A DNA stretch of 51,023 nucleotides from a bacterium (lineage in GTDB: Bacteria > JAGOBX01): the NCBI GenBank assembly GCA_029551925.1, contig JAKPEO010000068.1, positions 1 through 51,023 of the forward strand, read 5' to 3'. Shown here piece by piece: positions 601-46,961 of the stretch. The position numbers and the translations under genes were made by a program. The notes below the pieces were generated by a model that saw only the letters and a list, made by a program, of their open reading frames with translations, made no database searches and had not been told where the DNA came from. Each line of letters opens with the position of its first letter. Within the stretch, counting starts at the first letter, position 1.

Positions 601-1938
601 CTATGCTTTTTTTAAAATCTTATTATAGAGTGTTTTCCTTGATATTCCTAATATTTTAGCAGTTTGAGAAATATTATTATTAGTCATTTCCAATATTTTT
701 TTTATATATTCTTCTTCTACTTCTTCCAATGTTTTTATCTTTGATTTTTTATTTGTCATTAAATCTTTATTTAATAATTTAGCATAACCGTCGGTTAATT
801 CTGTAAGTGTTAAAATATTACCTGCGGCAAGCAAACATAATCTTTCTATAACATTTTGTAATTCTCTGACATTACCGGGCCAATCATAATCTTCAAATAA
901 TTTTATAAGTTTCTCATCTGCGCCAGAAATATCAAGATTATATTTTTTATTAAATGTTTTAATAAAATAATCTACTAATAATCTTATATCTTCCTTATGT
1001 TCTTTAAGTTGTGGCAATTCAATAGGAAAAACGCTCAAACGATAATACAAATCTTCGCGAAATCTACGCTCTTTTATTGCTTGTTCTAAATTCAACGAAG
1101 TTGCGGCTATTATTCTTCCAGAAAATTGTATCTCTTTTGTATCGCCGATACGCATAAATTTTTTTTCTTCTATTACCTTCAATAATTTCGCTTGCGAATT
1201 TAATGAAAGTGCGCCAATCTCATCTAAAAACAAATCGCCGTCTGTAACCGCTTCCAATTTTCCATATTGAAAAGTATACGCACCGGTATATGCGCCTTTT
1301 ATATGCCCAAAAAATTCGTTTTCTATTAATGTTTCCGGTATAGCTGCGCAATTAATAGATATAAACGGTTTATCGCGTCTCTTTGATTTTTTATGTATTA
1401 ATTGCGCTAATAAATTTTTACCTGTGCCACTTGCACCTAAAATCAAAATTGAAACATCTTTATCATACACATTTTTAATTTTTTCCAATACCTCTTTGAT
1501 TTTTTCTGATATGCCAATAAATTCAATGTCAGACTGATATGATTTTATTTCATTTTCTAATTGCCAGACCTTTCTTTTCAATTCACGAGTATTAACCGCA
1601 TTTTCTATTATCAATTTTAACTCGTCAAAATTATAGGGTTTTACTAAATAATCCACTGCCCCTTTTTTTACACAATTAATTGCATCACGAATATTGTCAT
1701 TAGCAGTTGCCATTATCACAATTATATCCGGATAAAGATTCATTAATTCATCTAAAAATGCGATGCCGCTGCCGTCCGGTAAATTTATATCAAGCAGCAC
1801 TATATCAATATAATGGTATTTTACTACCTCCCTCGCTTCTTTGAGAGTATTCGCAGTTTTTATAGTATAATAGTTTTCTAATAAATTAACTAATGGCTTG
1901 ATTAAATTATTATCATCATCAACTAAAAGTATATTCAT
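601..1938 (-). CDS. NtrC-family sigma-54-dependent response regulator
   Basis: This cytoplasmic transcription activator should work with RNA polymerase holding sigma-54 after phosphorylation by an unidentified sensor kinase. The receiver domain (1-115) has the acidic triad DDD at 7-9, phosphoacceptor Asp50, Thr78 and Lys100. The AAA+ domain (about 140-365) has Walker A GASGTGKN at 168-175, the sigma-54 contact loop GAYTGA at 215-220 (a variant of GAFTGA) and Walker B DGDLFLDE at 233-240. A Fis-type helix-turn-helix ends the protein (ISQTAKILGISRKTLYNKIL). The 445-residue length is normal. Walker A ends in Asn where Glu is usual. The gene lies 6 nt downstream of radA, last in the dapB-mlaD-radA run, and no kinase gene is in the window. 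Its target genes cannot be inferred. Confidence 0.93.
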   Translation of the reverse strand: MNILLVDDDNNLIKPLVNLLENYYTIKTANTLKEAREVVKYHYIDIVLLDINLPDGSGIAFLDELMNLYPDIIVIMATANDNIRDAINCVKKGAVDYLVKPYNFDELKLIIENAVNTRELKRKVWQLENEIKSYQSDIEFIGISEKIKEVLEKIKNVYDKDVSILILGASGTGKNLLAQLIHKKSKRRDKPFISINCAAIPETLIENEFFGHIKGAYTGAYTFQYGKLEAVTDGDLFLDEIGALSLNSQAKLLKVIEEKKFMRIGDTKEIQFSGRIIAATSLNLEQAIKERRFREDLYYRLSVFPIELPQLKEHKEDIRLLVDYFIKTFNKKYNLDISGADEKLIKLFEDYDWPGNVRELQNVIERLCLLAAGNILTLTELTDGYAKLLNKDLMTNKKSKIKTLEEVEEEYIKKILEMTNNNISQTAKILGISRKTLYNKILKKA

Positions 1939-1944
1939 AAAAAA

Positions 1945-3300
1945 TCAAAAATATTTTAGTAATTCTTTTATATTGCCAATTGTATGAATTTTAATATTTT
2001 GCGAAATGTCAGATTTTTCAAAATTTAAAATATTTTGATCTGATACAATACAATTATCTATTCCATTTTTTCTGCATTCATTGAATCTATCAAGCATTCG
2101 CGCAGCAGCGCGTATTTCGCCAGTCAATCCCAATTCGCCAATAAATGCGCTGCGCACACTTATCGCTCTATCTTTGACTGATGAAATTATTGACATCGCA
2201 ATCGCTAAATCAATCGCCGGATCGTCAATATCCAATCCGCCGGTTATATTCACAAATACATCTTTATCTATTAATGATATTCCGCAATGTTTTTCTATTA
2301 CTGCTATTATTACAGATAATCTCGATATTGATATTCCGCGCGCAACACGGCGAGCATTACCATAAATCGCGGAATTTACTAATGCTTGTATTTCTATTAG
2401 CAGAGGTCTGCTGCCTTCTATTACTACGCTGTTTGACACGCCGGCAACTTTATCTTTACGATTAAAATAAAATAAATTTGAATAATTATTTATTCCGCGC
2501 AAACCTTTATCTGTCATTTCAAATACCGCAATTTCATTTGTTGCGCCAAAACGATTTTTTATACTTTTCAATATTCGAAAGTCATTTGTTTTTTCGCCTT
2601 CAAAATACAAGGCTGTATCTACTAAATGTTCTAAAACGCGCGGTCCTGCAAATTCGCCGGTTTTAGTTATATGTCCAATTATAAAAACCACTATATTTCG
2701 CGGTTTGGCGTATTCCATTAATTTTAATGCGCATTCGCGCACTTGATTTATATTGCCAGGCGCCGATTGAACAGCGGAATCATAAATAGTCTGTATTGAA
2801 TCTATCACAATCACAGATGGCTTGATTTTTTCTGCAGTATTCAAAATTTTCGATATTTCAATTTCTTGCAGAAGCAATATTTTTGGATTTTTTAATTTTA
2901 ATCTATCAGCCCGAATCTTGATTTGTTCAGGCGATTCTTCGCCGGCTATATATAAAACTATATCAGATAAATTTTCAATAATTTGCAGCATTAAAGTTGA
3001 TTTGCCAATGCCCGGACTACCACCCAATAATATTAACGACGACGGTACAATACCACCGCCTATCAATTCATCAAATTCAGAAATACCTGTTTTTTGTCTG
3101 GTTATTTTTACCGAATCTATTTCCGTTAATTTTATTGGTGCTGACGGCTCTTTTAAATTAATATTAGTTTTAGATATATCTTCGTCTATAATTTCTACAA
3201 ATGAATTATAAATATTGCACTGCGGGCATTTGCCGAGCCATTTATTTGTCTCATAACCACAGCCATTACAAAGATATTTAATTTTATTTTTTTTAACCAT
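1945..3300 (-). CDS. radA: DNA repair protein RadA
   Basis: RadA is a RecA-like ATPase that acts as a branch-migration helicase in recombinational repair. The 451-residue protein has the full family layout: a C4 zinc finger (Cys11, Cys14, Cys25, Cys28), Walker A GGSPGIGKST at 93-102, the RadA-specific KNRFG motif at 248-252, and a C-terminal Lon-protease-like domain from about residue 275 without a protease role. The start is the ATG at 3298-3300; no strong ribosome binding site precedes it. It begins 13 nt after mlaD and ends 6 nt before the response regulator start, so the genes are probably cotranscribed. All key motifs are intact. Confidence 0.97.
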   Translation of the reverse strand: MVKKNKIKYLCNGCGYETNKWLGKCPQCNIYNSFVEIIDEDISKTNINLKEPSAPIKLTEIDSVKITRQKTGISEFDELIGGGIVPSSLILLGGSPGIGKSTLMLQIIENLSDIVLYIAGEESPEQIKIRADRLKLKNPKILLLQEIEISKILNTAEKIKPSVIVIDSIQTIYDSAVQSAPGNINQVRECALKLMEYAKPRNIVVFIIGHITKTGEFAGPRVLEHLVDTALYFEGEKTNDFRILKSIKNRFGATNEIAVFEMTDKGLRGINNYSNLFYFNRKDKVAGVSNSVVIEGSRPLLIEIQALVNSAIYGNARRVARGISISRLSVIIAVIEKHCGISLIDKDVFVNITGGLDIDDPAIDLAIAMSIISSVKDRAISVRSAFIGELGLTGEIRAAARMLDRFNECRKNGIDNCIVSDQNILNFEKSDISQNIKIHTIGNIKELLKYF

Positions 3301-7180: not shown

Positions 7181-8239
7181 ATGAGCAGTATATTTGAAAA
7201 CGCAATTAAAACGCCAGGTAATTGGTTATTAGAAAATGGTCCTAATTCTGATATTGTATTATCGTGTAGAATTAGATTAGCGAGAAATTTAAAAAATGAA
7301 TTATTTCCGCATTATATAAAAAAAGAAAACTCCAAAAAATTAAAGGAAAATTTAAAAAAAATAATATCTAATTGCGCTTCTTTAAATAATTCCGAATTTT
7401 ATGAAATGTCTGATATAACGCATTCTCAAAAAATGCTGTTATTAGAAAGACATTTAATAAGCAAAGAATTAGCAGAAAAAGAATTCGGTATGTTAGCAGT
7501 CAGTTCTGACGAAAAATTAAGTATTATGGTTAATGAAGAAGATCATTTAAGATTGCAGGCATTCGGTTCTGGACTCCAATTATCAGAAGTCTGGGAAAAG
7601 ATTAATAAATTAGACGATGAACTAGCGGAACAAGTAGAATTTGCATATTCGGAAAAATATGGTTTTTTGACCGCCTGCCCGACAAATGTCGGCACCGGTA
7701 TGCGTTGTTCTATATTAGTTCATCTTCCGGGCATAATTTTAATAAATCAACTTAAAAGCATTCATAAAGCAATAGAAAAATTAGGGCTGACAATACGCGG
7801 CTATTACGGCGAAGGTAGCGAAGCGATAGGTAATTTTTTTCAAATATCCAATCAAATTACACTCGGATTGTCAGAAGAACAAATAATAGACAAAATCAAT
7901 AATATCGGAAAAAAAATAGTTGAACACGAAGAAAACGCAAGAAAAGTATTATTACAGGAATCTAAAATACGGCTTGAAGATCAAATATACCGCGCTCTCG
8001 GAATATTAAAAAATGCGCGTATTATCTCGACTAATGAAACAATGAGTTTATTATCATTTATTAGATTAGCAGTTGATTTAAAAATAATCAAAGATATTAC
8101 AATATCTACTTTAAATGAGATATTAGTTTTTTTGCAGCCCGGTCATTTGCAAAAAATCGCCGGCAAAGAATTATCTCCAGAAAAACGCGATTTTATCCGC
8201 GCTAAGATGATACGCGAAAAATTTTCAAACGCTAACTGA
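7181..8239 (+). CDS. mcsB: Protein arginine kinase McsB
   Basis: McsB phosphorylates protein arginines, which in Bacillus marks proteins for ClpCP. The 352-residue protein has the phosphagen-kinase fold signatures: DIVLSCRIRLARNL near the N-terminus (ATP-phosphate-binding arginines), NEEDHLRLQ at 118-126, CPTNVGTGMRCS at 166-177 with the conserved Cys166, and GEGSEAIGNFFQISN at 210-224. The C-terminal RDFIRA at 336-341 fits the RDXXRA phosphoarginine pocket used for allosteric control, which separates McsB from ordinary arginine or creatine kinases. Unlike the Bacillus operon, no mcsA, ctsR or clpC is adjacent; the partner is greA. Its last 8 nt overlap the convergent gene, so no terminator separates them. 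Confidence 0.9.
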   Translation: MSSIFENAIKTPGNWLLENGPNSDIVLSCRIRLARNLKNELFPHYIKKENSKKLKENLKKIISNCASLNNSEFYEMSDITHSQKMLLLERHLISKELAEKEFGMLAVSSDEKLSIMVNEEDHLRLQAFGSGLQLSEVWEKINKLDDELAEQVEFAYSEKYGFLTACPTNVGTGMRCSILVHLPGIILINQLKSIHKAIEKLGLTIRGYYGEGSEAIGNFFQISNQITLGLSEEQIIDKINNIGKKIVEHEENARKVLLQESKIRLEDQIYRALGILKNARIISTNETMSLLSFIRLAVDLKIIKDITISTLNEILVFLQPGHLQKIAGKELSPEKRDFIRAKMIREKFSNAN

Positions 8240-12259: not shown

Positions 12260-14674
12260 TCAAATTCCTATTTTCAAAAATTCTAATTCGTCATAAAGTT
12301 CTTTTGGTATTGTTATTCCGGATTTTTCGTATTTCTTGATTTTATTTTCAAGTTGCTGAATCTTTTTTGTGTTAATATTGACAAATTTAAAGTTTAATTT
12401 AGTAAAATTTGGATTATTTGCTAACTTATCGCGATAGCGTTTGTGAAAGGGGACATAATTGAAAAATATATCACGCGTCAAAATATTCAATTTCATTACG
12501 CCCTGCGATTCGTTTTGTATCCATAAAATATAATCTTCTGCGAATCTATCTTTTGTCTGAGGAATTTTCTTGAATTGCTGTTTTATCTTTTCTTTTATCT
12601 CTTCGCTCAATTCTTTGCTCTGCTTATAAATTGATGTATATTCAAAGTATCTGCCGGTCAAACCGCCGTTAATCGGATCGCCCCAGTTTGGTCCGGCAAT
12701 TGTCTTCGCTAATTCCCAACGCAGATGAGCAAATGCTTCTAACAGCATTGTTTTTAAATCATCAGTTGCAAACAGCGGCACCATTATACGGCCCTTGCTG
12801 CTTTTATTTCGGTCAGATAATTCCTGCCAGCATACTGCCTTACTACCGGCAACAGGCAAAATAATAAAATAAGGCAGCACTTCCTTTTGCACAAATTCTT
12901 TACCGTCTCCGCACATTACGCTTACTTCTCGATAAAAGCAAGAATAATCTATTTCCAATATTTCTTTGACTGTTTTTTCCAATCGTTCTTTTGTAACTAT
13001 GCAGGCATCCGGCTTTAATGAAATATAATCACTGTCTATTATCGGAGATTGTTGAGAAATCATTCCGGCGCAAGTACGCACTGCTGCAGATATTACCTCT
13101 TTTATTTCATACGAAAGATGCAATTTTGATGGGTCCATATTAGGCAATTTATTTTCTTTGGCATATTCGTCAAATGTCTGCCCTAATCCATTTATACTTG
13201 GCGGCGTGATATTACCAGAATATATTTGCGAAAGCCATTCATCAGCAAAATAAATATCTATTGTATGCGGAGTTTCAACAGGCGTAGCTTTAAAACAATT
13301 TATCGTGTCTTCATTCAAAAGATTATCATCTAATACACCATAACGCAACATCAAAAATACAGATACTGGCAAGTCTCCGCCTTTCTCAATATATTCAAGA
13401 AATAAATCATTATAAAACTGCCAATATATCGCGTCTAATTCTTTCTTGATTTTTCTGCCGTCGCCCATTGTGTCAAACTTATCTATTATCTTATGATATT
13501 TTTCTAATGCTGCGCGCAATTTCGTTTTTACTTCATTATTAGAACACGGTATCTGCATCAGATTATTAAAATTATCATTAAACTCCAAATTGCTCTGTTC
13601 TATAATCTTTAATTTCTTTTCTTCTTGTTTTTTCGCTACTTGTTCTTTTTCTTTACTCATTAACGCAGTTTCTTGTTTTAAAAATTCAGGATGTAAATTA
13701 TTTATTTTGCTGTTATACATATCCAGATATTGAATATGTAAATCCTTCAATATCTGGACTAATTTTGAATGCGCTTTTTCTACAAATTTAAAACTCGGAT
13801 GTTGCGCTGATTTCAATAATCCATAAATCGAATAAAATGATTCAAATACGCTTCGATTAATGCCCGCTAATCTTAATATTTCTTCTTCTGCTAACTTATT
13901 GGTTTTTATAAAAAATTTGTTTAATTCTTTTAAATATTCGCTCAATTTCAAACAAGTAAACTCCACAATATTCGGACTTAGTTTTATTACTATTTTCGCA
14001 ACTTTTTCAGGTAAATAAAGTATATCTTTTATAATATCAATAATTTCAAAATTAATAGTTGGCAATTCTATATCTATTCCATATTCTCTTTCAAACGCAT
14101 TACTCAAATTAGTTTCTATCAATGCTAATGACAATTTATCTGCGACTTTTCCTTTTGATTTTTCAACTAATTCTTTGCCATTAACATAAACAGGATGATT
14201 TTTATCTTTTGCATTTTGATTTAATTTATAATACACAAACGAAAAATTATCATAATACATCTGCGCTTTTTCTAATAATTTTATTGTGTTTTCAATAACT
14301 CCATAAGTACTCAAACTTTTTTGTAATAATGTCTTGCTGATAGATAGTCCTATAACCGGATTCGTGCGTATTAGATTTTTTAATGCATCTTTACCAGTGG
14401 GAATCTTTACTAATGTTCCATTAGTCAGTGCTCTAATAGTAGCATTACGCGAGGTATTAAGAATAAAACTAACTTCGCCAAATGGCGTCTTTTCATCTTT
14501 TATCACTCCCACTCTACGACTGCTTGCCAATAATTCGTTTTTTTTGATTTCAGTTCCCTCAACTACATCAGCAATTAAAACCTCTAATTCGCCATTAACT
14601 AAAATAAATAATCCGTCAGTTGGGTCTCCTTGATAACAAATAATATCATCTTTATAAAAAGTTATTTTTTCCAT
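12260..14674 (-). CDS. Large protein with N-terminal cyclic-nucleotide-binding domain
   Basis: Residues 1-130 form a CRP-type cNMP-binding domain: ICYQGDPTDGLFILVNGELE in the beta-roll, then the phosphate-binding cassette FGEVSFILNTSRNATIRAL, which keeps the ligand-phosphate Glu and Arg. The remaining 670 residues contain no DNA-binding helix-turn-helix or other domain I recognise; they are largely helical, with a Lys/Glu-rich linker near 340-365 and a coiled-coil-like C-terminus (QQLENKIKKYEKSG). It is therefore an effector or regulator, not a CRP-type transcription factor. The ATG at 14672-14674 follows an AGGA site 11 nt away. A class I adenylate cyclase lies about 7 kb further on (21725-24427), so cAMP is a reasonable ligand. 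Confidence 0.78.
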   Translation of the reverse strand: MEKITFYKDDIICYQGDPTDGLFILVNGELEVLIADVVEGTEIKKNELLASSRRVGVIKDEKTPFGEVSFILNTSRNATIRALTNGTLVKIPTGKDALKNLIRTNPVIGLSISKTLLQKSLSTYGVIENTIKLLEKAQMYYDNFSFVYYKLNQNAKDKNHPVYVNGKELVEKSKGKVADKLSLALIETNLSNAFEREYGIDIELPTINFEIIDIIKDILYLPEKVAKIVIKLSPNIVEFTCLKLSEYLKELNKFFIKTNKLAEEEILRLAGINRSVFESFYSIYGLLKSAQHPSFKFVEKAHSKLVQILKDLHIQYLDMYNSKINNLHPEFLKQETALMSKEKEQVAKKQEEKKLKIIEQSNLEFNDNFNNLMQIPCSNNEVKTKLRAALEKYHKIIDKFDTMGDGRKIKKELDAIYWQFYNDLFLEYIEKGGDLPVSVFLMLRYGVLDDNLLNEDTINCFKATPVETPHTIDIYFADEWLSQIYSGNITPPSINGLGQTFDEYAKENKLPNMDPSKLHLSYEIKEVISAAVRTCAGMISQQSPIIDSDYISLKPDACIVTKERLEKTVKEILEIDYSCFYREVSVMCGDGKEFVQKEVLPYFIILPVAGSKAVCWQELSDRNKSSKGRIMVPLFATDDLKTMLLEAFAHLRWELAKTIAGPNWGDPINGGLTGRYFEYTSIYKQSKELSEEIKEKIKQQFKKIPQTKDRFAEDYILWIQNESQGVMKLNILTRDIFFNYVPFHKRYRDKLANNPNFTKLNFKFVNINTKKIQQLENKIKKYEKSGITIPKELYDELEFLKIGI

Positions 14675-32669: not shown

Positions 32670-34826
32670 CTAAAAAATTATTTTCAAGCCGGTATTAATT
32701 GACAATTTATTATAATTCAAAGTAATATCTTCAAATTTATTTTCATTATATTCAAGATTAAGGGTCAGCGCGCGGCTGTATTTTTCTAATTTTTGAGAAT
32801 ATTCACAATTAAACATATATCTATGCTTACGCGAATCTTGATTTGGCTGATTCGAGTTGGTTATATCTGTATAATATCCGATATTAAAATTCAATGTAGG
32901 AGTATTATAAATAAATGCTATACTGCCGTTCAAATATTTTTCTTTATCTGCGATATATGTCTTATATCTTGTTTTTAATCGTAAATCAATCGTAAACTTT
33001 TCAATAATTTTTGTTTTGAAATTATTATCAAATTCCAGAATACGCATATATATTTTTTCATTCAATAAATTATCTATTTCTCGTTCGTGTTCAAATGAAA
33101 TATTGAATAAATATTGGTTGTCAAACAATTTATTAAAAAATCTATATTTCGCGTTGATTGTCGATAAATCATTATCTCTATCAACTGAACTATTGCTTAT
33201 CTTATTATATTTTTCGCTTTTCAAAACTTCTAAAAATAACTCTATATATCGCAAGCCTTCAGTAAACTCTTCTAATGGTTTAAAATTACAGCCCGCTTTA
33301 TGTTCAAATACATAATTTCTTTTATTATTGCGTTTTTTCAAATCATCAAACTGATAACGAGTATTAATATTATAATTAAAAATTTTATAGACATTGCGAT
33401 AATTAAAATTAATATTTTCCTTATCTGGCGTAGCAATACCATTCAGTGTATAAAAATCGCTGCCTACTCGATTAAATTCAAATGTCGCTTGCGCTTTATC
33501 TTGTTTATAATTTAATTTTAACATTGCGGCGTTATCTTCGATTGTATCAGTATCTTCAAAAGTTGTGGGCTTATAAAACGAATGAGTAAATTCAAATTCC
33601 AATAACAGTGGAGCAAATAATTTGAATAACCCGTATACGCCTGTATGATAATTACGAACCGGTATTATTGCAGTATCCTCGCTGATGCTGTTCTTGTCAT
33701 CTTGACTCAATGCCGCAGAAAAAAGCAATTTTTGTTTATTTTCAAAATTGCGAGTATATCCCAATACAAAACTATTGCGAGCATAATATTGATTGTCTTT
33801 GCCTTCGCGATCGCGGCCTGCGATAATCGTATAAACATTTTTTTTATCCGTTGTCTGATAATCCGCAATCAAGCCCTCAAGCGAATTGCTGAATATTGTT
33901 TTAATCGTCTGTGAAAAAATATTGCCAGCAGAAATTTTTAAATTTTTATTTTGATAATTTAATAATATTTTATCTAAATCTACTTTTTTGTTTTCTTCAT
34001 AACTTTTAGTTTTTATTACAAGATTACCATCTAATGATGCGCCGCTGTTTAATAAAGATTTGAAAGTAATTTTTTCTTCGGTCTCAAATTTATTTTGCGT
34101 CTTTTTGTCTTCGCCCGCGGCTTCTAAATCGCCAGATGTTATCGCTATATGTTCGTTTCTAATATTTATTTCGGTTTGAACTTTTGTTGATGGCTGTTTT
34201 TTTTCAGTTGGCTGCGCAATTTGTTCGCCTAAGGATTCAAGCAATTTTCGCTGCGCTTCTGTTAATTCTATTTTTTTCTTTTCTTGAAATAATTCGCTTC
34301 TTTTTTCTAAAATTTGATTTATTTCTTCATTAATTTTTTGCGTGATTTTTTCGATAAAATCGCGAATGGTTTCTCTATCCGATTTTCCGCGACCATCTGG
34401 ATTCTGTTCAGTAGAAAATATATTTTCAATAAATACATTCGGTTGAGTATAAATATTTCTTCCGCTGTCACTCTTTAAAATATCTATATTAAGTAGCATA
34501 ATATACCGTTTTTCAATTACATTATTATTTTTATCGCGAGTATAATCGGATATTGAAAAATCCAATATTTTACCTGATAATTTATAATCGCCGACATTAT
34601 CGATTTTCAATTTAGGATTTTCTTTAAGTTTTGGCGATAAAGTATTCTTCAATAATTCTACAATATTATATTCGTCTAACAGCGCTTTTAAATTAGCATT
34701 ATAATCAAACCAATCTATTTGGATACTAATAGGCTTTGATACAATTTCGTCATTTTTAGCAAATATCGTATTATAACTCAACAAGCATAAACACAACAAA
34801 AAATATAATTTAATTTTTTTTAACAT
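32670..34826 (-). CDS. Outer-membrane protein with LptE-like N-terminal domain and beta-barrel
   Basis: The 718-residue protein begins with a signal peptide (cleaved after about residue 23, TIFAK). Residues about 30-200 look like a small periplasmic alpha/beta domain (YKLSGKILDFSISDYTRD, then VIEKRYIMLLNIDIL), reminiscent of LptE or a CsgG/LpoB-type domain. A Gln/Lys-rich linker follows (about 195-225). The last 480 residues alternate polar and aromatic residues in strands typical of an outer-membrane barrel, and the protein ends in Phe, as barrels often do. I do not know the family. It is the last gene of the six-gene envelope operon. Confidence 0.7.
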   Translation of the reverse strand: MLKKIKLYFLLCLCLLSYNTIFAKNDEIVSKPISIQIDWFDYNANLKALLDEYNIVELLKNTLSPKLKENPKLKIDNVGDYKLSGKILDFSISDYTRDKNNNVIEKRYIMLLNIDILKSDSGRNIYTQPNVFIENIFSTEQNPDGRGKSDRETIRDFIEKITQKINEEINQILEKRSELFQEKKKIELTEAQRKLLESLGEQIAQPTEKKQPSTKVQTEINIRNEHIAITSGDLEAAGEDKKTQNKFETEEKITFKSLLNSGASLDGNLVIKTKSYEENKKVDLDKILLNYQNKNLKISAGNIFSQTIKTIFSNSLEGLIADYQTTDKKNVYTIIAGRDREGKDNQYYARNSFVLGYTRNFENKQKLLFSAALSQDDKNSISEDTAIIPVRNYHTGVYGLFKLFAPLLLEFEFTHSFYKPTTFEDTDTIEDNAAMLKLNYKQDKAQATFEFNRVGSDFYTLNGIATPDKENINFNYRNVYKIFNYNINTRYQFDDLKKRNNKRNYVFEHKAGCNFKPLEEFTEGLRYIELFLEVLKSEKYNKISNSSVDRDNDLSTINAKYRFFNKLFDNQYLFNISFEHEREIDNLLNEKIYMRILEFDNNFKTKIIEKFTIDLRLKTRYKTYIADKEKYLNGSIAFIYNTPTLNFNIGYYTDITNSNQPNQDSRKHRYMFNCEYSQKLEKYSRALTLNLEYNENKFEDITLNYNKLSINTGLKIIF

Positions 34827-34855
34827 TGCAGAACTAAATTTATAAAATTTTAATA

Positions 34856-36718
34856 TTATAAATCAGGCGGCGACGGCAGCGTAGGAAACCACGCTTTAAA
34901 ATTTAGACCTGTTCTATCAGTCATTATTTTCCACACGCCATTTTCTTTTATTACATCAAATTTTGACAAAACAGATATGCCTTTCGGAATATCAATATCA
35001 GTAAAATACATATTTCTTCTAAATTGAAATGTAACTTCACCGCGAGTCGGACTATTTAATACAATAGTTCTATTCGATGCAGAACATAATGAAGTTGTAC
35101 TGCGTCTAAATTCTCTTTTTATTGTATCATTAATTTCATTATAATCACGATATCCTCTAAAATTCCCTGAAAAATTTTCGGAAATACAAGACATAAACAA
35201 AGCATTATCGCCATTCAAAATTGCTTGACAGAAATTATCTAAAAGCATATTAATCAATTGATTATTTGTTTTATGAGTGTAATTAATATAAAGTTCATTA
35301 AAATAATCTTCGGTAAGCCATTTATCATCGTCCATTTGGATTTTTATAGCAAATTTTAAAACTGCATCACCAGTAGGTCTATAAGAATACTCCAATTTTT
35401 GCTGTGCGGTCTTTTTTTCAAATGTGATATTTTGATAATTATTGCCATCAATCGTAATACTTAATATTTTCACATTTGATAGATTATTCGCTGAAAATGA
35501 AATTAGAAATCTATCGTCAAGCAAATTATCTCTACATAAATATTCGCCTTTTTGATAACTATCAATTGGTTTATTATTTATCATTATTTCAACAATGTTC
35601 GGCTGTTGTTCAATTTCTACAATTTCCAGTTGTGTATCTTCGCGCACTTCATCTTTTTTAATAACAACAGGCAGTTCAATAGAAAAATATGAAATGGCAT
35701 CAACATCTGTTTTTGATATAATATTTTCATTTTTATCCAAAGCCACCACTAACCACGCATAATTAGTTTTATCCTTCAATTCTTCTATCGCATCGCTTGC
35801 CGAAAAAACATAATTTGTCGCTTTAAGTTCTTTTGATAAAATCAAATTATTCGGAGAAAATGGAATACGCGAAATATATAATTGATATTTTTCCGCTGAT
35901 TGATAATTATCCCAAGCAAATTCAGGATTCAAAATTCTAACTATACTATTTTGATTCGGGCTCTGCCGTCTAATATAAGAAATTACTATCTGTTGCGATA
36001 TTTGTTCTATATCTTCAGAAAATTCGATTTTTTCTTCTTCTGGCTGGACGACTGCGATATCTACTAATGGCGTTATTGTTAATTGAAATATAAATTCCCC
36101 TTTTTTTACAGTTGTGATTACTTCTTCTTTTTTTACTTCTTGCTGTTGTGTGGGCTGTTCGATTTTTTCTTGAGTAATCGTTACAGTTTTTTCCAGCTGC
36201 TGTTCTTCGCCTACTTGCGGTTGAACAATCGGCGCTGTAATCCCTTCGCTTTTCTCAGGCTGCTCAATTGTCTCTACTTTCTTTTCCGACTCTTTTTGGA
36301 CCGCTGCTTCTGTCTTTATTAGTTTCTCTGACAATTGCTCTATTTCTTCGGAAAATTCATATTCGACTTGCGGTTCAGGCGAACTAACTATCGCGTCGCC
36401 TGTAAATACAAATTCCCCTTTTTTTCTCTTTGTAATTACTTCTACAACTGAATCTTTTATTTCTTCAAGTGATACTTTTAACTGCGGCTGTTCTACTTTT
36501 TCTTCTTTTCTGCTATCCTGTTCTGCAGCGGATGCAGCAGTTTTTTCAATTTCCTGCTGCATCTTATTTTGCTGGTCTTTTAATTGTTCTTTTAGAAAAA
36601 TCGGTAATAAAATCGGCTTATCATTTAATATCGGATAATATATTATCGCTGCATTAAGTCCGCCAATAAACAAAATAAAAAATAAACAGTAACAAAAAAG
36701 ATAAAAAATTTTCTTCAT
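34856..36718 (-). CDS. Membrane-anchored periplasmic protein with internal repeat and NTF2-like C-terminal domain
   Basis: A 620-residue protein with one N-terminal transmembrane helix (about 5-28), a Gln/Glu/Lys-rich low-complexity stalk (about 45-245), a fibronectin-like segment (about 255-350) and a C-terminal SnoaL/NTF2-like domain (about 485-605, ending FDVIKENGVWKIMTDR). The stalk holds a duplicated unit: KKGEFVF (99-105) followed by SEEIEQLSEKL, and KKGEFIF (205-211) followed by SEDIEQISQQI. The architecture recalls a TonB-like spanning stalk, but no TonB C-terminus is present. The ATG at 36716-36718 is preferred to a TTG one codon earlier. It follows the FecR gene by 10 nt. Confidence 0.7.
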   Translation of the reverse strand: MKKIFYLFCYCLFFILFIGGLNAAIIYYPILNDKPILLPIFLKEQLKDQQNKMQQEIEKTAASAAEQDSRKEEKVEQPQLKVSLEEIKDSVVEVITKRKKGEFVFTGDAIVSSPEPQVEYEFSEEIEQLSEKLIKTEAAVQKESEKKVETIEQPEKSEGITAPIVQPQVGEEQQLEKTVTITQEKIEQPTQQQEVKKEEVITTVKKGEFIFQLTITPLVDIAVVQPEEEKIEFSEDIEQISQQIVISYIRRQSPNQNSIVRILNPEFAWDNYQSAEKYQLYISRIPFSPNNLILSKELKATNYVFSASDAIEELKDKTNYAWLVVALDKNENIISKTDVDAISYFSIELPVVIKKDEVREDTQLEIVEIEQQPNIVEIMINNKPIDSYQKGEYLCRDNLLDDRFLISFSANNLSNVKILSITIDGNNYQNITFEKKTAQQKLEYSYRPTGDAVLKFAIKIQMDDDKWLTEDYFNELYINYTHKTNNQLINMLLDNFCQAILNGDNALFMSCISENFSGNFRGYRDYNEINDTIKREFRRSTTSLCSASNRTIVLNSPTRGEVTFQFRRNMYFTDIDIPKGISVLSKFDVIKENGVWKIMTDRTGLNFKAWFPTLPSPPDL

Positions 36719-36728
36719 CAATCTATTT

Positions 36729-37655
36729 TTACTTGTTCACAATTTTATATTTAAAACTAAATCCCTTCTCGCCTTTTGTATCAAACGAATAGATATAAAC
36801 TTTTTCCGCTTCTATTTCTTTACCGCCGCTTGAAAAATTCATCTTATATTCGCCAACAGGATTGCCATTAGATAAAACAATAATAATAACTTCACTCTGC
36901 GCCAGATCTATATTTTTTACTTTCAAAGTAATTTCTTTAATATTCCCGTTATCAACAATATTTTCGCCTAATAATGTTGGAGTTAATTCTATTATTATCG
37001 GTTTGGAAATTTCTTTTTCTTTACTATTTAATTTTACTAATTCTTCATCGCTCATCTTTTTCGGTTTTTCAGGTGCGGAATTTTTTGTTAACGAAGTTTT
37101 TTCGCCTTTTTTAACTGATACTTTTTTATTAGGAAAAGCAGGATTATACATTTCGACATTGCCTTCCAAAACTGATAAATTAGATTCATCTTTTATTTGC
37201 TCTACATTAAATGATGTCCCGCGCACACCACACACAGAAGAAGCTGTTTTTACTTCAAATTCCGAGCCGCGACTTAATTTATTTACTTTTGAAAATATAT
37301 TGCCGCTCGCTAAATTTATTTTTGCGCTTGTGCCTGTAACTTTTTCAGATTTTCCAAACATTTTTTTTACTTCTACTTCTTGTTGCTTTAATGCTTCTAA
37401 TGTCAATAATGTATTGCTTTCTACCATCAGCAGCGTGCCGTCTTCTAATTTTATACGCGCTGACGATTCTTTTGCAGTTCTAATTGAATCTGCTTCTTTT
37501 ACCAAATCACCGGGTTTAGCATTAACCCAAGTTTCAGCGGCAGGCGATTTGAATTGAACGCCGCCTTTGACATCTACAATCTTCGCTGTAAGCGAAGCAT
37601 ACAATGCAGAATTTAATAATAAAATACTTGTCATCACTGCAAAAAACTTTTTCAT
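36729..37655 (-). CDS. FecR-domain periplasmic protein
   Basis: A 308-residue exported protein with a signal peptide (about 1-20, ending ALYAS) and a FecR domain (about 25-175): IVDVKGGVQFKSPAAETW, then PGDLVKEADSIRTAKESSAR and the late motif VCGVRGTSFNVE. FecR domains sense or bind in the periplasm; in classical systems they control an ECF sigma factor, but this copy lacks an N-terminal cytoplasmic anti-sigma part and no sigma gene is near. The last 90 residues form a separate beta-rich domain. AAGGGGGAAG precedes the ATG at 37653-37655. It lies in the middle of the envelope operon. Confidence 0.87.
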   Translation of the reverse strand: MKKFFAVMTSILLLNSALYASLTAKIVDVKGGVQFKSPAAETWVNAKPGDLVKEADSIRTAKESSARIKLEDGTLLMVESNTLLTLEALKQQEVEVKKMFGKSEKVTGTSAKINLASGNIFSKVNKLSRGSEFEVKTASSVCGVRGTSFNVEQIKDESNLSVLEGNVEMYNPAFPNKKVSVKKGEKTSLTKNSAPEKPKKMSDEELVKLNSKEKEISKPIIIELTPTLLGENIVDNGNIKEITLKVKNIDLAQSEVIIIVLSNGNPVGEYKMNFSSGGKEIEAEKVYIYSFDTKGEKGFSFKYKIVNK

Positions 37656-41323: not shown

Positions 41324-42031
41324 TTATTCATTTTTATCCTTTATAGATTCTGATGCCGGGAGGGATAGTTTATTTTTTAATTGTTCGGCATTTTTTAATT
41401 CAACAATTACGTAATCTATCGATTCAATTATTTTTATAGATGGATCAATTTTTTCTAATTTTATTTCTATTCGTCCGCTATTCAATAAATCTTTAATATT
41501 AACAGTCTCTGTTTTCAACTCCTTGATTTTTCTTAATATCTTTTCAGGGCCGATAATATCAGCAAATTCAGGAGTTATAATTATATCTGAAAAATTAAAA
41601 TTTTTAGGTATATCTCCTAATATTTCTGGAATGACTTTTACTCTTTTATTTGCTTTTCTATCAATAGTAATCTCTATTTCTGGTGGGTCAATATTAACAA
41701 TTTTAAATTCTTCTGGTATTAAAATATAATTAGAAAATATCTTAAATGTATTATTGCCGACTGTCGCATTTGCTAAATCAATCATCACATCTGTATTAAC
41801 AAAATTTTGCGATGACTGATAATTTTTTGGACCATATAAAAGTAATTTTACAAATTTCAAATCATCTTTATCTTTAACTATACATAAATTATCAGGCAGA
41901 TTTTTATATTTAATCGGAGCAATCACAGTAAATTCCACTGATTTTTGGCTCGCAATATAAAACCACAGCAAAAATGCAATCATCACAGCAAGTAATTTTA
42001 AATGCCAATTTTCAAATATTTTTATTTTCAA
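41324..42031 (-). CDS. cdaR: YbbR-domain protein, CdaA regulator
   Basis: A 235-residue protein with one N-terminal transmembrane helix (about 10-24, HLKLLAVMIAFLLWFYIA) and two YbbR-type beta domains (for example FTVIAPIKYKNLPDNLCIV). In Firmicutes CdaR binds and modulates CdaA. The start is a TTG at 42029-42031: AAGGTG lies 7 nt upstream, no ATG would keep the helix intact, and this spacing fits. It follows cdaA by 14 nt and ends the ftsH-folE-folP-cdaA-cdaR operon. glmM, often next, is not present. Confidence 0.85.
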   Translation of the reverse strand: MKIKIFENWHLKLLAVMIAFLLWFYIASQKSVEFTVIAPIKYKNLPDNLCIVKDKDDLKFVKLLLYGPKNYQSSQNFVNTDVMIDLANATVGNNTFKIFSNYILIPEEFKIVNIDPPEIEITIDRKANKRVKVIPEILGDIPKNFNFSDIIITPEFADIIGPEKILRKIKELKTETVNIKDLLNSGRIEIKLEKIDPSIKIIESIDYVIVELKNAEQLKNKLSLPASESIKDKNE

Positions 42032-42045
42032 ATCACATCACCTTA

Positions 42046-42783
42046 TTACATATGCGTTACCATTAATTCTTTTAAAAAATCTTCTTCTATATCGCTTACT
42101 AATTTTCCTTTTACAGCAACTGATATATTACCTGTTTCTTCTGATACAATTATCACAAATGCATCTGTTTCTTCTGAAATTCCCAAGCCAGCGCGGTGTC
42201 TTGTACCGAATGTTTTCTTCAAACTTTGATTATCAGAGAGTGGTAAAATACAACTTGCCGCCACAATTTTATTTCCGCTTATTATCACTGCTCCGTCGTG
42301 CAACGCAGTATTTTTAAAAAATAAAGTTGTTAATAATTCTATTGTAACATTAGCATTAAGTTCCACTCCTGTTTTAGCATAATCTTTAAGCGATATGGAA
42401 TTTTCTATTACTATCAATGCACCAATTTTTAATTTAGACATTCGCACTACTGCTTTTAATATCTCATTTTTTATATCTTCAGTCATTTCCTGTTTGAATA
42501 ACCGCTGCCAAATGCGATTATTTCCTATACGCGCAAGCGCTTTTCTAATCTCTGTTTGAAATAAAATTATGAATGTCAATACCCAAATAGATGCGAAATT
42601 TGTCAATAGCCACGCAATAGTCCGCAATCTAAATTTTTCTGCAATAAGCGAAAATATCAGTATTATTCCTAACCCGAATAACACTTGAACAGCATATGTC
42701 CCGCGTATAAATATAAATACTTTATAAAGCACATACGCTATCAACAAAATATCAATAATATCATTAAAATTAGGAACTATCAT
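42046..42783 (-). CDS. cdaA: Diadenylate cyclase CdaA
   Basis: CdaA condenses two ATP into c-di-AMP. The 245-residue protein has three membrane helices (about 9-26, 31-48, 57-76), a coiled linker and a DAC domain (about 100-230) with the DGA motif at 163-165 (LHDGAVII) and RHR at 195-197 (FGTRHRAGLG). Both catalytic motifs are intact. The order folP-cdaA-cdaR is a known conserved arrangement. Targets of c-di-AMP are not in the window. Confidence 0.95.
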   Translation of the reverse strand: MIVPNFNDIIDILLIAYVLYKVFIFIRGTYAVQVLFGLGIILIFSLIAEKFRLRTIAWLLTNFASIWVLTFIILFQTEIRKALARIGNNRIWQRLFKQEMTEDIKNEILKAVVRMSKLKIGALIVIENSISLKDYAKTGVELNANVTIELLTTLFFKNTALHDGAVIISGNKIVAASCILPLSDNQSLKKTFGTRHRAGLGISEETDAFVIIVSEETGNISVAVKGKLVSDIEEDFLKELMVTHM

Positions 42784-42803
42784 TTATCTTTTATAAACTC
42801 TCA

Positions 42804-44018
42804 TTAATTTAAAATTTTTACATTCATTATTTTTTTTGTCAATTCCAATGCCTGTTTGTTTTCCTTTATATTATGAACTCTAAAAATTCGCGCGCCGTTA
42901 ATATACGCATTTACATTTGCCGCAGCAGTGCCTATCACTCTTTCACTAATTTCTAAATTTAATATTTTACCAATAAACGATTTATTACTTACACCGATTA
43001 AAATAGGTCTATTCAACGATGAGAACTCATTCAACCGTTTAATTATTTCAAGATTATGTTCAACTGTCTTACCAAAACCAATACCAGGATCAATAACTAT
43101 TGAATTTTTATTCACGCCTTTTGACACTGCCTTTTCTATTGCTTCTAAAAGATATATCATTATCTCTTTTATTAAATTTTTATAATTAGGATTATCTTGC
43201 ATATTCATCGGTTCGCCCTGTTTATGCATTAAACACAACCCTGCTTTGTATTCAGCAGTTAAATCAGCAATATTAATATCTTTTGATAACCCCGAAATAT
43301 CATTCACAATATCAGCGCCATTATCTAATGCGCGTTTTATAACATTATACTTTGTGCTGTCAATAGAAATCGGTATATTCGCGAAATTTTTTTTTAATTC
43401 CTTTAAGATAGGTATTACTCGATTTATTTCTTCTTCTTCTGTTATTGGCTCTGCACCAGGACGCGTTGATTCGCCGCCTATATCCAAAATATCAGCGCCG
43501 TCTTTTATCAGTTTTTCCGCATAATTCAAAGCATCTGTTAGAGTTTCATTATATTTTCCACCATCATAAAACGAGTCTGGCGTAATATTTATTATGCCCA
43601 TCAATACAAAATTATTTTGTGAAAAATTAAACGAATGATTTGTGAACATCCAATATTTTTCAATATGTGCAACTAATGCTAATAATTCATTCGCAACTAT
43701 ATCCAGTCCGAATTGTTGCTTCTTAATTTTTTTTATTAAAATATTCAATTGTTTGAGATTGCACATTAATAGCGTTGTAAATTTTTTGGTTTTATCTTCT
43801 TCAATTATACATTCTTTTGGTATCGCCAATTCCGCGCCGCAAGACAGCGCTTCTTGCTTTAATATTATAGCCGCAGGCGCGCGTAATTCGTTTATCTCAA
43901 TATTATAATAATTCAATTTATTTTTCATTATGTTTATGCCTGCGGCATCCACATCTAAATTAAATAAATATCTGACAATGTCTTCATCTTTTTCAAATTT
44001 TATTAATCTGCAGATCAT
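42804..44018 (-). CDS. folP: Dihydropteroate synthase with N-terminal extension
   Basis: DHPS joins p-aminobenzoate to the pterin diphosphate in folate synthesis. The catalytic TIM-barrel covers about residues 130-400 and has [49 protein letters not shown] and [14 protein letters not shown]. At 404 residues it is longer than the usual 270-290: an N-terminal extension of about 120 residues precedes the barrel, as in several other bacterial DHPS proteins. The start overlaps the folE stop as ATGA (44015-44018). It lies between folE and cdaA. Confidence 0.95.
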
Positions 44019-44578
44019 AGCGTTTTCCTTAATAACTCTAATGCCTCTGTGCGCGTGCGCGAATCCGCTCTAAATATTCCGCGCAATGCGGATGTAATAG
44101 TTACGGCACCAGGCTTTTTTATTCCGCGAATAGTCATACATAAATGTTCCGCTTCGATTATTACAAGCACACCTTTTGGCTTTAATACTTTCATCAATGT
44201 ATCAGCAATCTGCGTAGTCAGACGCTCTTGCAATTGCGGTCTCTTTGAATATATATCTACTATCCGCGCTAATTTACTTATGCCTGTAATCATAGAATTT
44301 TCTGGAATATATGCAACAGATGCACTACCTATAAACGGCAATAAATGATGTTCGCAAAATGAAAAAAACGGGATATCTTTAACCATTACTAATTCTTCGT
44401 GTTTTTCTTCTTTAAATATTTTAAATACTTTTTCCGGCTCTTTTTTCAAACCGCTGAATACATCTAAATACATTCGCGCTACTCTATCAGGCGTTTCTTT
44501 TAAACCCTCGCGCTCTAAATCTTCGCCAATACCTTCTAATATTAACCGTACACCTTGCTTGATTTTCTCTGTATCCAT
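44015..44578 (-). CDS. folE: GTP cyclohydrolase I
   Basis: FolE converts GTP to 7,8-dihydroneopterin triphosphate, the first step of folate synthesis. The 187-residue protein has the zinc ligands Cys75 and His78 ([11 protein letters not shown]) and Cys147 ([11 protein letters not shown]), plus [20 protein letters not shown]. All are intact. The ATG at 44576-44578 is preferred to an in-frame TTG at 44585-44587; neither has a clear ribosome binding site. It starts 22 nt after ftsH and overlaps folP by 4 nt. Confidence 0.96.
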
Positions 44579-44600
44579 ATCTAACAAATATCAAATATAT

Positions 44601-46961
44601 TTAATTTTGTTTTTCCTTTATTTTTGACACTAATCCGTCAATCACTTTTGCAGAGTGTTCAATCGCTGTCGGCTCAATAAATAAAATTTTTACCCTACGA
44701 TTTTTAGCGCGGCCATCAGGCAGCGCATTATCGCCGATCGCTTCACTGTCCGCTTTACCTATTGCAAACAGCATATTTTCAGGTATCTCGAATTTTTCAA
44801 TTATATACTTCTTTACATTTTGCGCACGCTGTAAAGATATACGATTTTTTTCTTCCGCTGTCCCCAAACTATCAGTATATCCCAAAATTTCAATACGCGG
44901 AGTTTTAGAACTATATTTTTCAGATTCTTTTGTTAATATATCTTTAATCTGTTTTGCAATTCTATCAATCGCTATTTGTCCGCTTTCTGTCATTTCTGTT
45001 TTATTTACTTCAAACATCATTCCCAACACATTATAAGTTATAATATTATTCATTGATGAAACAGCAACTGGAAGCGGAGAAAACGCGACATTCTCGCCAT
45101 TTTCTTTTTCTTTTGTTTTAACATCTTCGCCGCGAATAACAGCACGTACTTCTTCACCGTCAATAGTTTCTTTTTCCAATAACAATTCTGCAATCTTATC
45201 TAATATCGCGCGATTTTTAGTTAAAATTGTATGTGCTAACTCATATTGTTCTGTAACTATTCTTTTTATCTCTCCGTCAAGTTCTATCCCGGTATGTTCG
45301 CTATGATCTTTATGATACGCCAATTCTCTGCCTAAAAATGGATGCTCTTCGCGTTTACCAAATTGCACTGGACCAATCTTTTCACTCATTCCCCATTCGC
45401 AAACCATCTTTCGCGCTATTTCCGTAGCGCGTTCTATATCATTAGACGCGCCTGTCGTAGGCGCTGAAAATACAATATTTTCTGCGGCGCGGCCGCCCAT
45501 TAATATCGCTATTTTAGACAGCCAATATTCTTTGGGATAACTATATTTTTCTTCTTCCGGTAAATGAACAGTCGCTCCTAATGCGCGACCGCGAGGTATT
45601 ATAGTTATCTTATGCAGCGGATCAGTGCCCGGTATCATCTCTGCTACCAACGCATGACCGGCTTCATGATATGCGGTATTCTTCTTTTCTTTTTCATTTA
45701 TCACTAAACTTTTACGAGCAGGGCCCATCATTACTTTATCTTTCGCTTCTTCCAATTCAGGCATTGTCACTAAATCTAAATTTTTGCGCGCCGCTAATAA
45801 CGCTGCTTCATTCATTAAATTCTCCAAATCTGCACCTGAAAAACCTGGACACCCGCGCGCTATAACTTCTAAGTCAATATTTATATCTAATGGTATTTTT
45901 TTTGAATGCACTTTTAATATTCCTATTCTGCCTTTTAAATCCGGATTATCTACAACTACTGTTCTGTCGAATCTGCCTGGTCTTAATAATGCCGGATCTA
46001 ATACATCTGGTCTGTTTGTCGCCGCTATCAATATCACGCCTTCGTTAGTTTCAAATCCGTCCATTTCCACTAACAACGCATTCAGCGTCTGCTCGCGTTC
46101 ATCGTGCCCACCGCCTAATCCAGCTCCACGCTGTCTGCCGACTGCGTCTATCTCGTCAATAAAAATTATGCAGGGCGCGCGTTTTTTTCCCTGTTCAAAT
46201 AAATCGCGCACTCTGCTTGCGCCTACGCCGACAAACATTTCAACAAAATCTGAACCGGATATACTCAAAAATGGCACGCCCGCTTCGCCTGCAACAGCGC
46301 GCGCTAATAATGTTTTTCCAGTCCCGGGCGGACCTACTACTAATACTCCTTTTGGAATCCTACCTCCTAATCTTTGAAATTTTTTTGGATCTTTTAAAAA
46401 ATCTATTATTTCTTCTAATTCTTTCTTGGCTTCTTCACAACCGGCAACATCATTAAATGTCACTTTCGGAAGATTACTTATAAATAATTTTGCGCGACTC
46501 TTGCCAAATGAAAAGGCGCCTTTACCGCCGCCGCCGACATTACGATAAAATACAAACCATAAAAATAAAATAAATAATAATGTAGGGCCCCAAGTAAATA
46601 ATATGCTGCTCCAAAATCCGCTTTCTTCCGGCTGTTTGATTTTGACATTTATGTTTTTACTGCTTAAATCTTCGGCAAATTTATAATCAACTTCCGGTAT
46701 AACGCATTTTTTCTTATAACTTACTAAATTATCTATATATTCAATATACGCTATTTTTTCTTGAAATACTATGCTCTTAATCTCTACTCTATCGCGATTA
46801 CCTACTGGCAATTCTGCGCGTTTTACTAGATTCATAAACTCTGTAAATGTAATCTCTTTACTTTCCGCACTATTCGGCGTCTGATTAAACGAATAAAATA
46901 AAGTCGCTATTATCAATCCCAACAGCAGCCAGAATGCCAAATTTTTAGACGAATCTTTCAT
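44601..46961 (-). CDS. ftsH: ATP-dependent membrane protease FtsH with C-terminal OmpA-like domain
   Basis: Residues 1-612 are a complete FtsH: transmembrane helices at about 8-24 and 118-138 around a periplasmic domain, Walker A GPPGTGKT (210-217), Walker B IIFIDEID (265-272), the SRH region with NRPD and RPGRFDR, the zinc-protease motif HEAGH (432-436) and the third ligand Asp508. FtsH usually ends near 610-650 residues. Here the frame continues to 786 with an OmpA-like domain (about 637-765): [20 protein letters not shown], then [12 protein letters not shown]. It keeps Asp697 and Arg712, matching the diaminopimelate-binding residues of OmpA. No membrane segment lies between, so the domain would be cytoplasmic by normal topology. 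Start ATG 46959-46961. Confidence 0.95.

Follow-up and report, generated by a model that had tools for sequence, protein, structure and literature searches.

The window, by which we mean the whole stretch of 51,023 nucleotides analysed here, encodes an FtsH protease that runs on, in a single open frame, into an OmpA-like domain. The gene is the housekeeping FtsH of its lineage, to whose C-terminus a flexible linker attaches an OmpA-like domain. As far as we searched, it is a genuine variant of a known protein that has not been described before, and it occurs in a single, poorly known family. The gene, its parts and the genes that follow it are located in the window as follows:

44601..46961, minus strand: ftsH-ompA fusion gene (786 aa, one uninterrupted frame), the sole M41 gene found in the genome of the window
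46542..46943, minus strand: membrane and periplasmic part, with TM1 at about residues 7-26, FtsH_ext (Pfam, residues 9-108) and TM2 at about residues 118-140 (hydropathy)
45951..46346, minus strand: AAA ATPase domain, residues 206-337 (PF00004, E 7.3e-47)
45138..45704, minus strand: M41 zinc protease domain, residues 420-608, with HEAGH at 432-436 and Asp508 (PF01434, E 9e-72)
45018..45125, minus strand: linker, residues 613-648, with 616-637 predicted to be disordered (pLDDT <50)
44697..45017, minus strand: OmpA-like domain, residues 649-755, with Asp697, Arg712 and GRAKNRR (PF00691; AlphaFold model; PDB matches)
44604..44663, minus strand: helix of residues 767-786 that follows the OmpA core at the C-terminus (helix 152-170 of the model; conserved in the alignment with the second genome, G001)
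44015..44587, minus strand: folE (GTP cyclohydrolase I; PF01227), the next gene downstream of ftsH-ompA
41324..44018, minus strand: folP, cdaA (c-di-AMP synthase) and ybbR, the rest of the gene run, which also lies downstream of OmpA-less FtsH genes

The FtsH portion is complete. NCBIfam assigns the protein to FtsH (TIGR01241) at 844.9 bits, with a cut-off of 600, and the features by which FtsH is recognized are all present: FtsH_ext, an AAA domain with Walker A and B motifs, an M41 domain with HEAGH and the aspartate that serves as third zinc ligand and, by hydropathy, two N-terminal membrane segments; Pfam additionally places AAA_lid_3 at residues 361-405. With its motifs intact, the protein is predicted to be a hexameric ATP-dependent protease. 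It resembles characterized FtsHs (such as those of E. coli, 7vhp, and Thermotoga, 2ce7) in its full set of FtsH domains, its catalytic motifs, its two membrane segments and its neighbourhood of folate genes, but differs in the addition, after a linker of about 40 residues, of an OmpA-like domain of about 110; FtsH structures in the PDB match it only to about residue 622. The preliminary description had reported a complete FtsH joined in frame to an OmpA-like domain, which the 786-aa frame and the Pfam domains bear out, and its residue positions are all correct (HEAGH at 432, Asp508, Asp697 within the GYTD motif at 694, Arg712 and GRAKNRR at 750). The span that it gave for the added domain, 44667-45053 (residues 637-765), covers the OmpA domain and is slightly wider than the Pfam match at 44697-45017. 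At the possible internal start codons that we examined (codons 637, 648, 649 and 657), no convincing ribosome site was found.

The tail of the protein has a clear OmpA fold, and the predicted fold and the architecture are both well supported. The domain scores 60.3 bits with PF00691 (E 2.5e-16; curated cut-off 27.2 bits), and several OmpA-family models of NCBIfam match the tail in part. AlphaFold, given residues 616-786 together with translations of 14 OmpA relatives from contigs of a viral collection, modelled a core at pLDDT >90 that is preceded by a disordered linker (616-637) and followed by a C-terminal helix. The top Foldseek match of this model is OprF (5u1h, E 1.2e-10), and VIA-align gave Z scores of 18.1 to 7rjj (rmsd 1.7 over 117 residues), 17.6 to TagL (7bba), 15.7 to AbOmpA with an mDAP pentapeptide (3td5) and 15.3 to AbOmpA with DAP (3td4). 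A tail model unlike OmpA had been named as one outcome that would overturn the preliminary description; the predicted structure instead matches the OmpA fold. In common with known OmpA-like domains (AbOmpA, 3td3-3td5; OprF, 5u1h; the PA1041/YiaD lipoproteins) the tail has the fold, the Asp and Arg ligand residues and GRxxNRR, while it differs from them in some 10 additional residues ahead of strand 2, the C-terminal helix and a lysine in place of a near-invariant asparagine. AlphaFold modelled the full-length protein poorly (pTM 0.39), and that model was discarded for placing the domain relative to the protease ring.

The same fusion is encoded in G001, which belongs to a different genus within the family (L007, 733..3105, minus strand; 790 aa). 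The two proteins are 74% identical over residues 1-785 of the window protein, and the OmpA domain of G001 scores 61.1 bits with PF00691 (cut-off 27.2). By part, identity falls from 96% in the AAA domain and 81% in M41 to 57% in the N-terminal part, 48% in the OmpA domain and 31% in the linker. Downstream of the fusion gene lies folE in both genomes (by sequence in G001). A single M41 match was found in each genome; given their completeness of 86-87%, a second FtsH is unlikely in either.

We surveyed 386 genomes of about 260 families with a profile that combines the end of FtsH with the OmpA domain. Among the matches listed, full-length ones occur only in the genome of the window (G000) and in G001, and the remainder cover either the FtsH part alone or a separate OmpA part alone; the search for further FtsH homologs with a C-terminal OmpA domain, proposed in the preliminary description, yields one family and two genera among the matches listed. 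Across the 84 FtsH frames examined, the OmpA domain is absent from all but the window and G001 copies. Long FtsH frames in G003, G020 and G023 were considered as candidates and set aside; they have no extra C-terminal domain, their additional length lying elsewhere. A query spanning the junction, from the FtsH end into OmpA, had no full-length match among the plasmids and phages searched. Of 2572 plasmid records from a different search, 4 were reported with 80% coverage of the protein as a whole. We found no description of an FtsH-OmpA fusion in the open-licence literature, in agreement with the earlier impression that no such FtsH had been described.

FtsHs of another phylum (L008 of G030, 1501-3300; L135 of G312; L136 of G177) also end in a conserved domain of about 130 residues. 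It is located at the same place as the OmpA-like domain but is different in sequence, with no Pfam match and neither GYTD nor NRR, and a profile built from it has clear matches only in G030, G177 and G312. In an FtsH tree from a quick search, this phylum is the group nearest to the FtsH of the window (SH-aLRT 82). Alignment of the tail to OmpA with hhalign gave probabilities of 26% and 17.5% over 26 columns, a region corresponding to the second OmpA helix and the next strand; the scores, 27.0 and 23.7, exceed every one of 100 and 150 shuffles, respectively, which peak at 20.0 and 23.1, and in the second case the margin is narrow. These comparisons are suggestive of a possibly degenerate OmpA domain, and they hint at an older C-terminal FtsH extension.

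OmpA domains are normally periplasmic wall anchors, whereas FtsH has its AAA and protease domains in the cytoplasm. By hydropathy, the fusion protein has just two stretches that are hydrophobic and long enough to cross the membrane (about residues 7-26 and 118-140), and a third, sought after residue 600, was not found; the best 19-residue mean in that region is 1.12 at residues 632-650, a peak that runs into the first OmpA strand. Because there is no third membrane segment and the AAA and protease domains of FtsH are cytoplasmic, the OmpA-like domain should face the cytoplasm. The unusual topology that had been offered as an alternative therefore finds no support, and the domain differs from known, periplasmic OmpA-like domains in being tethered to a cytoplasmic protease. 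FtsH is a hexamer, so as many as six OmpA domains would be suspended below its protease ring.

In Omp38 of A. baumannii the positions aligned with Asp697 and Arg712 are Asp271 and Arg286, the residues reported to bind diaminopimelate (PMC5974059; PMC12108004). The equivalents of both are preserved in G001 despite 48% identity of the domain, and the two proteins share the GYTDSLG loop and GRAKNRR without change while much of the remaining domain has diverged. An asparagine located between the two ligand residues in 98% of standalone OmpA domains is retained in G001 and is Lys705 in the window. The standalone OmpA domains gathered for comparison have 29 columns in which conservation reaches 70% or more; the window copy matches 16 of these and that of G001 24. 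The preliminary claim that the domain keeps its ligand-binding residues accordingly stands for Asp697 and Arg712 but not for the whole signature. Lys705 and the other motif losses could weaken the pocket of the window protein, and the conserved Asp, Arg and NRR may instead serve the fold.

MurE carries a DNPR motif, which we take to be the DAP-type motif, in both G000 and G001, and the window carries dapB and MlaD. Standalone OmpA proteins in the genome of the window are, by appearance, OmpA-barrel-like, Pal-like with a coiled coil and MotB-like. This gene content fits a diderm with LPS and a DAP-type wall. The order ftsH-folE-folP-cdaA-ybbR is shared in part by ordinary FtsH loci (folP in 50 of 80, cdaA in 20 of 80); the operon context is common to FtsH genes without OmpA and is therefore no argument for a link to the wall. 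LpxC is the classical FtsH substrate. LpxC frames of about 435-446 aa, seemingly fused to FabZ by sequence, are found in G000 (L137), G001 (L138) and the G030 phylum (L139-L141), so LpxC control of the E. coli type cannot be carried over.

Other genes in the window include a class-I adenylate cyclase (PF01295 with PF12633; 21725-24427, minus strand), an enzyme best known from gammaproteobacteria, and an 804-aa protein with a cNMP-binding domain (12260-14674). A 352-aa ATP:guanido phosphotransferase (7181-8239, plus strand) resembles McsB in size and family; outer-membrane genes are present in the same genome. Two long frames of 718 and 621 aa at 32670-36721 (minus strand) have no Pfam match and adjoin a FecR-domain protein (36729-37655).

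We tentatively favor a reading in which the accessory OmpA domain binds mDAP-containing precursors or turnover peptides and thereby tunes or targets FtsH. The pocket of Asp697 and Arg712 would bind cytoplasmic molecules that contain mDAP, either UDP-MurNAc-peptides or recycled wall peptides; binding would alter the activity of FtsH or its selection of envelope-synthesis substrates, and proteolysis would in this way be coupled to the supply of cell-wall precursors. We count in favor of mDAP binding the intact FtsH and OmpA parts in two genera, the structural matches to mDAP and DAP complexes, Asp697 and Arg712, the DNPR MurE, dapB and the single M41 gene, and against it Lys705 and the motif losses, the possible role of Asp, Arg and NRR in the fold, the operon shared with OmpA-less FtsH and the LpxC-FabZ frames. 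The more specific proposal, that an OmpA fold moved to the cytoplasmic side of a housekeeping FtsH reads mDAP wall precursors and sets proteolysis accordingly, is doubtful.

Ranking just below mDAP binding, and nearly as likely, is the possibility that the domain is a protein-docking module that recruits a substrate or an adaptor to FtsH, its ligand binding being vestigial. The OmpA fold makes protein contacts in the TolB-Pal and YfiB-YfiR complexes, both of which are among the structural matches, a disordered linker suits a tethered recruiter, and the wall-binding signature is incomplete in the window copy. Docking does not readily account for Asp, Arg, the GYTDSLG loop and GRAKNRR, which are identical in both members while the rest has largely diverged. 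Less probable still is a domain whose main effect is on hexamer assembly or stability, or that acts as a shield for the protease ring, with no specific ligand or partner; the conserved helix after the OmpA core would fit such a role, as would the extra conserved C-terminal domain, different in sequence, of the neighbouring-phylum FtsHs, but the survival of the pocket residues would be left unexplained.

That the domain is a neutral passenger, an accidental fusion already in decay, is very unlikely. The OmpA part does change faster than the M41 part (48% versus 81% identity). However, synonymous sites between the window and G001 are saturated or nearly so (pS 0.62 to 0.86; for the OmpA part, pS 0.66 and dN 0.47), and the frame, fold and motifs have survived this divergence; by our estimate from base composition, the probability that 174 codons at 30% GC contain no stop by chance is about 1e-6. 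An open frame and OmpA motifs preserved at saturated synonymous divergence indicate selection, and we reject decay as largely refuted, in keeping with the preliminary view that the domain is not simply decaying. An assembly or binning artefact that fused separate FtsH and OmpA genes, for which one could cite the fragmented assemblies of both genomes (131 and about 590 contigs), or a frameshift or false join between residues 612 and 637, is refuted by the G001 copy, which has the same junction at 74% identity, with folE 3' of it in both genomes, and merits practically no credence.

FtsH is among the most conserved bacterial proteases, and how its substrates are chosen is still being worked out. 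A wall-binding fold fused to the sole FtsH found in the genome is a covalently stated partnership of proteolysis and the cell wall, and its interest lies in a conflict of compartments, with an OmpA domain that should lie in the cytoplasm, where such domains are not expected. The fusion raises a testable question, whether an OmpA domain can read cytoplasmic precursors, and suggests that FtsH-OmpA may use its OmpA domain to sense the building blocks of the cell wall or to recruit partners.
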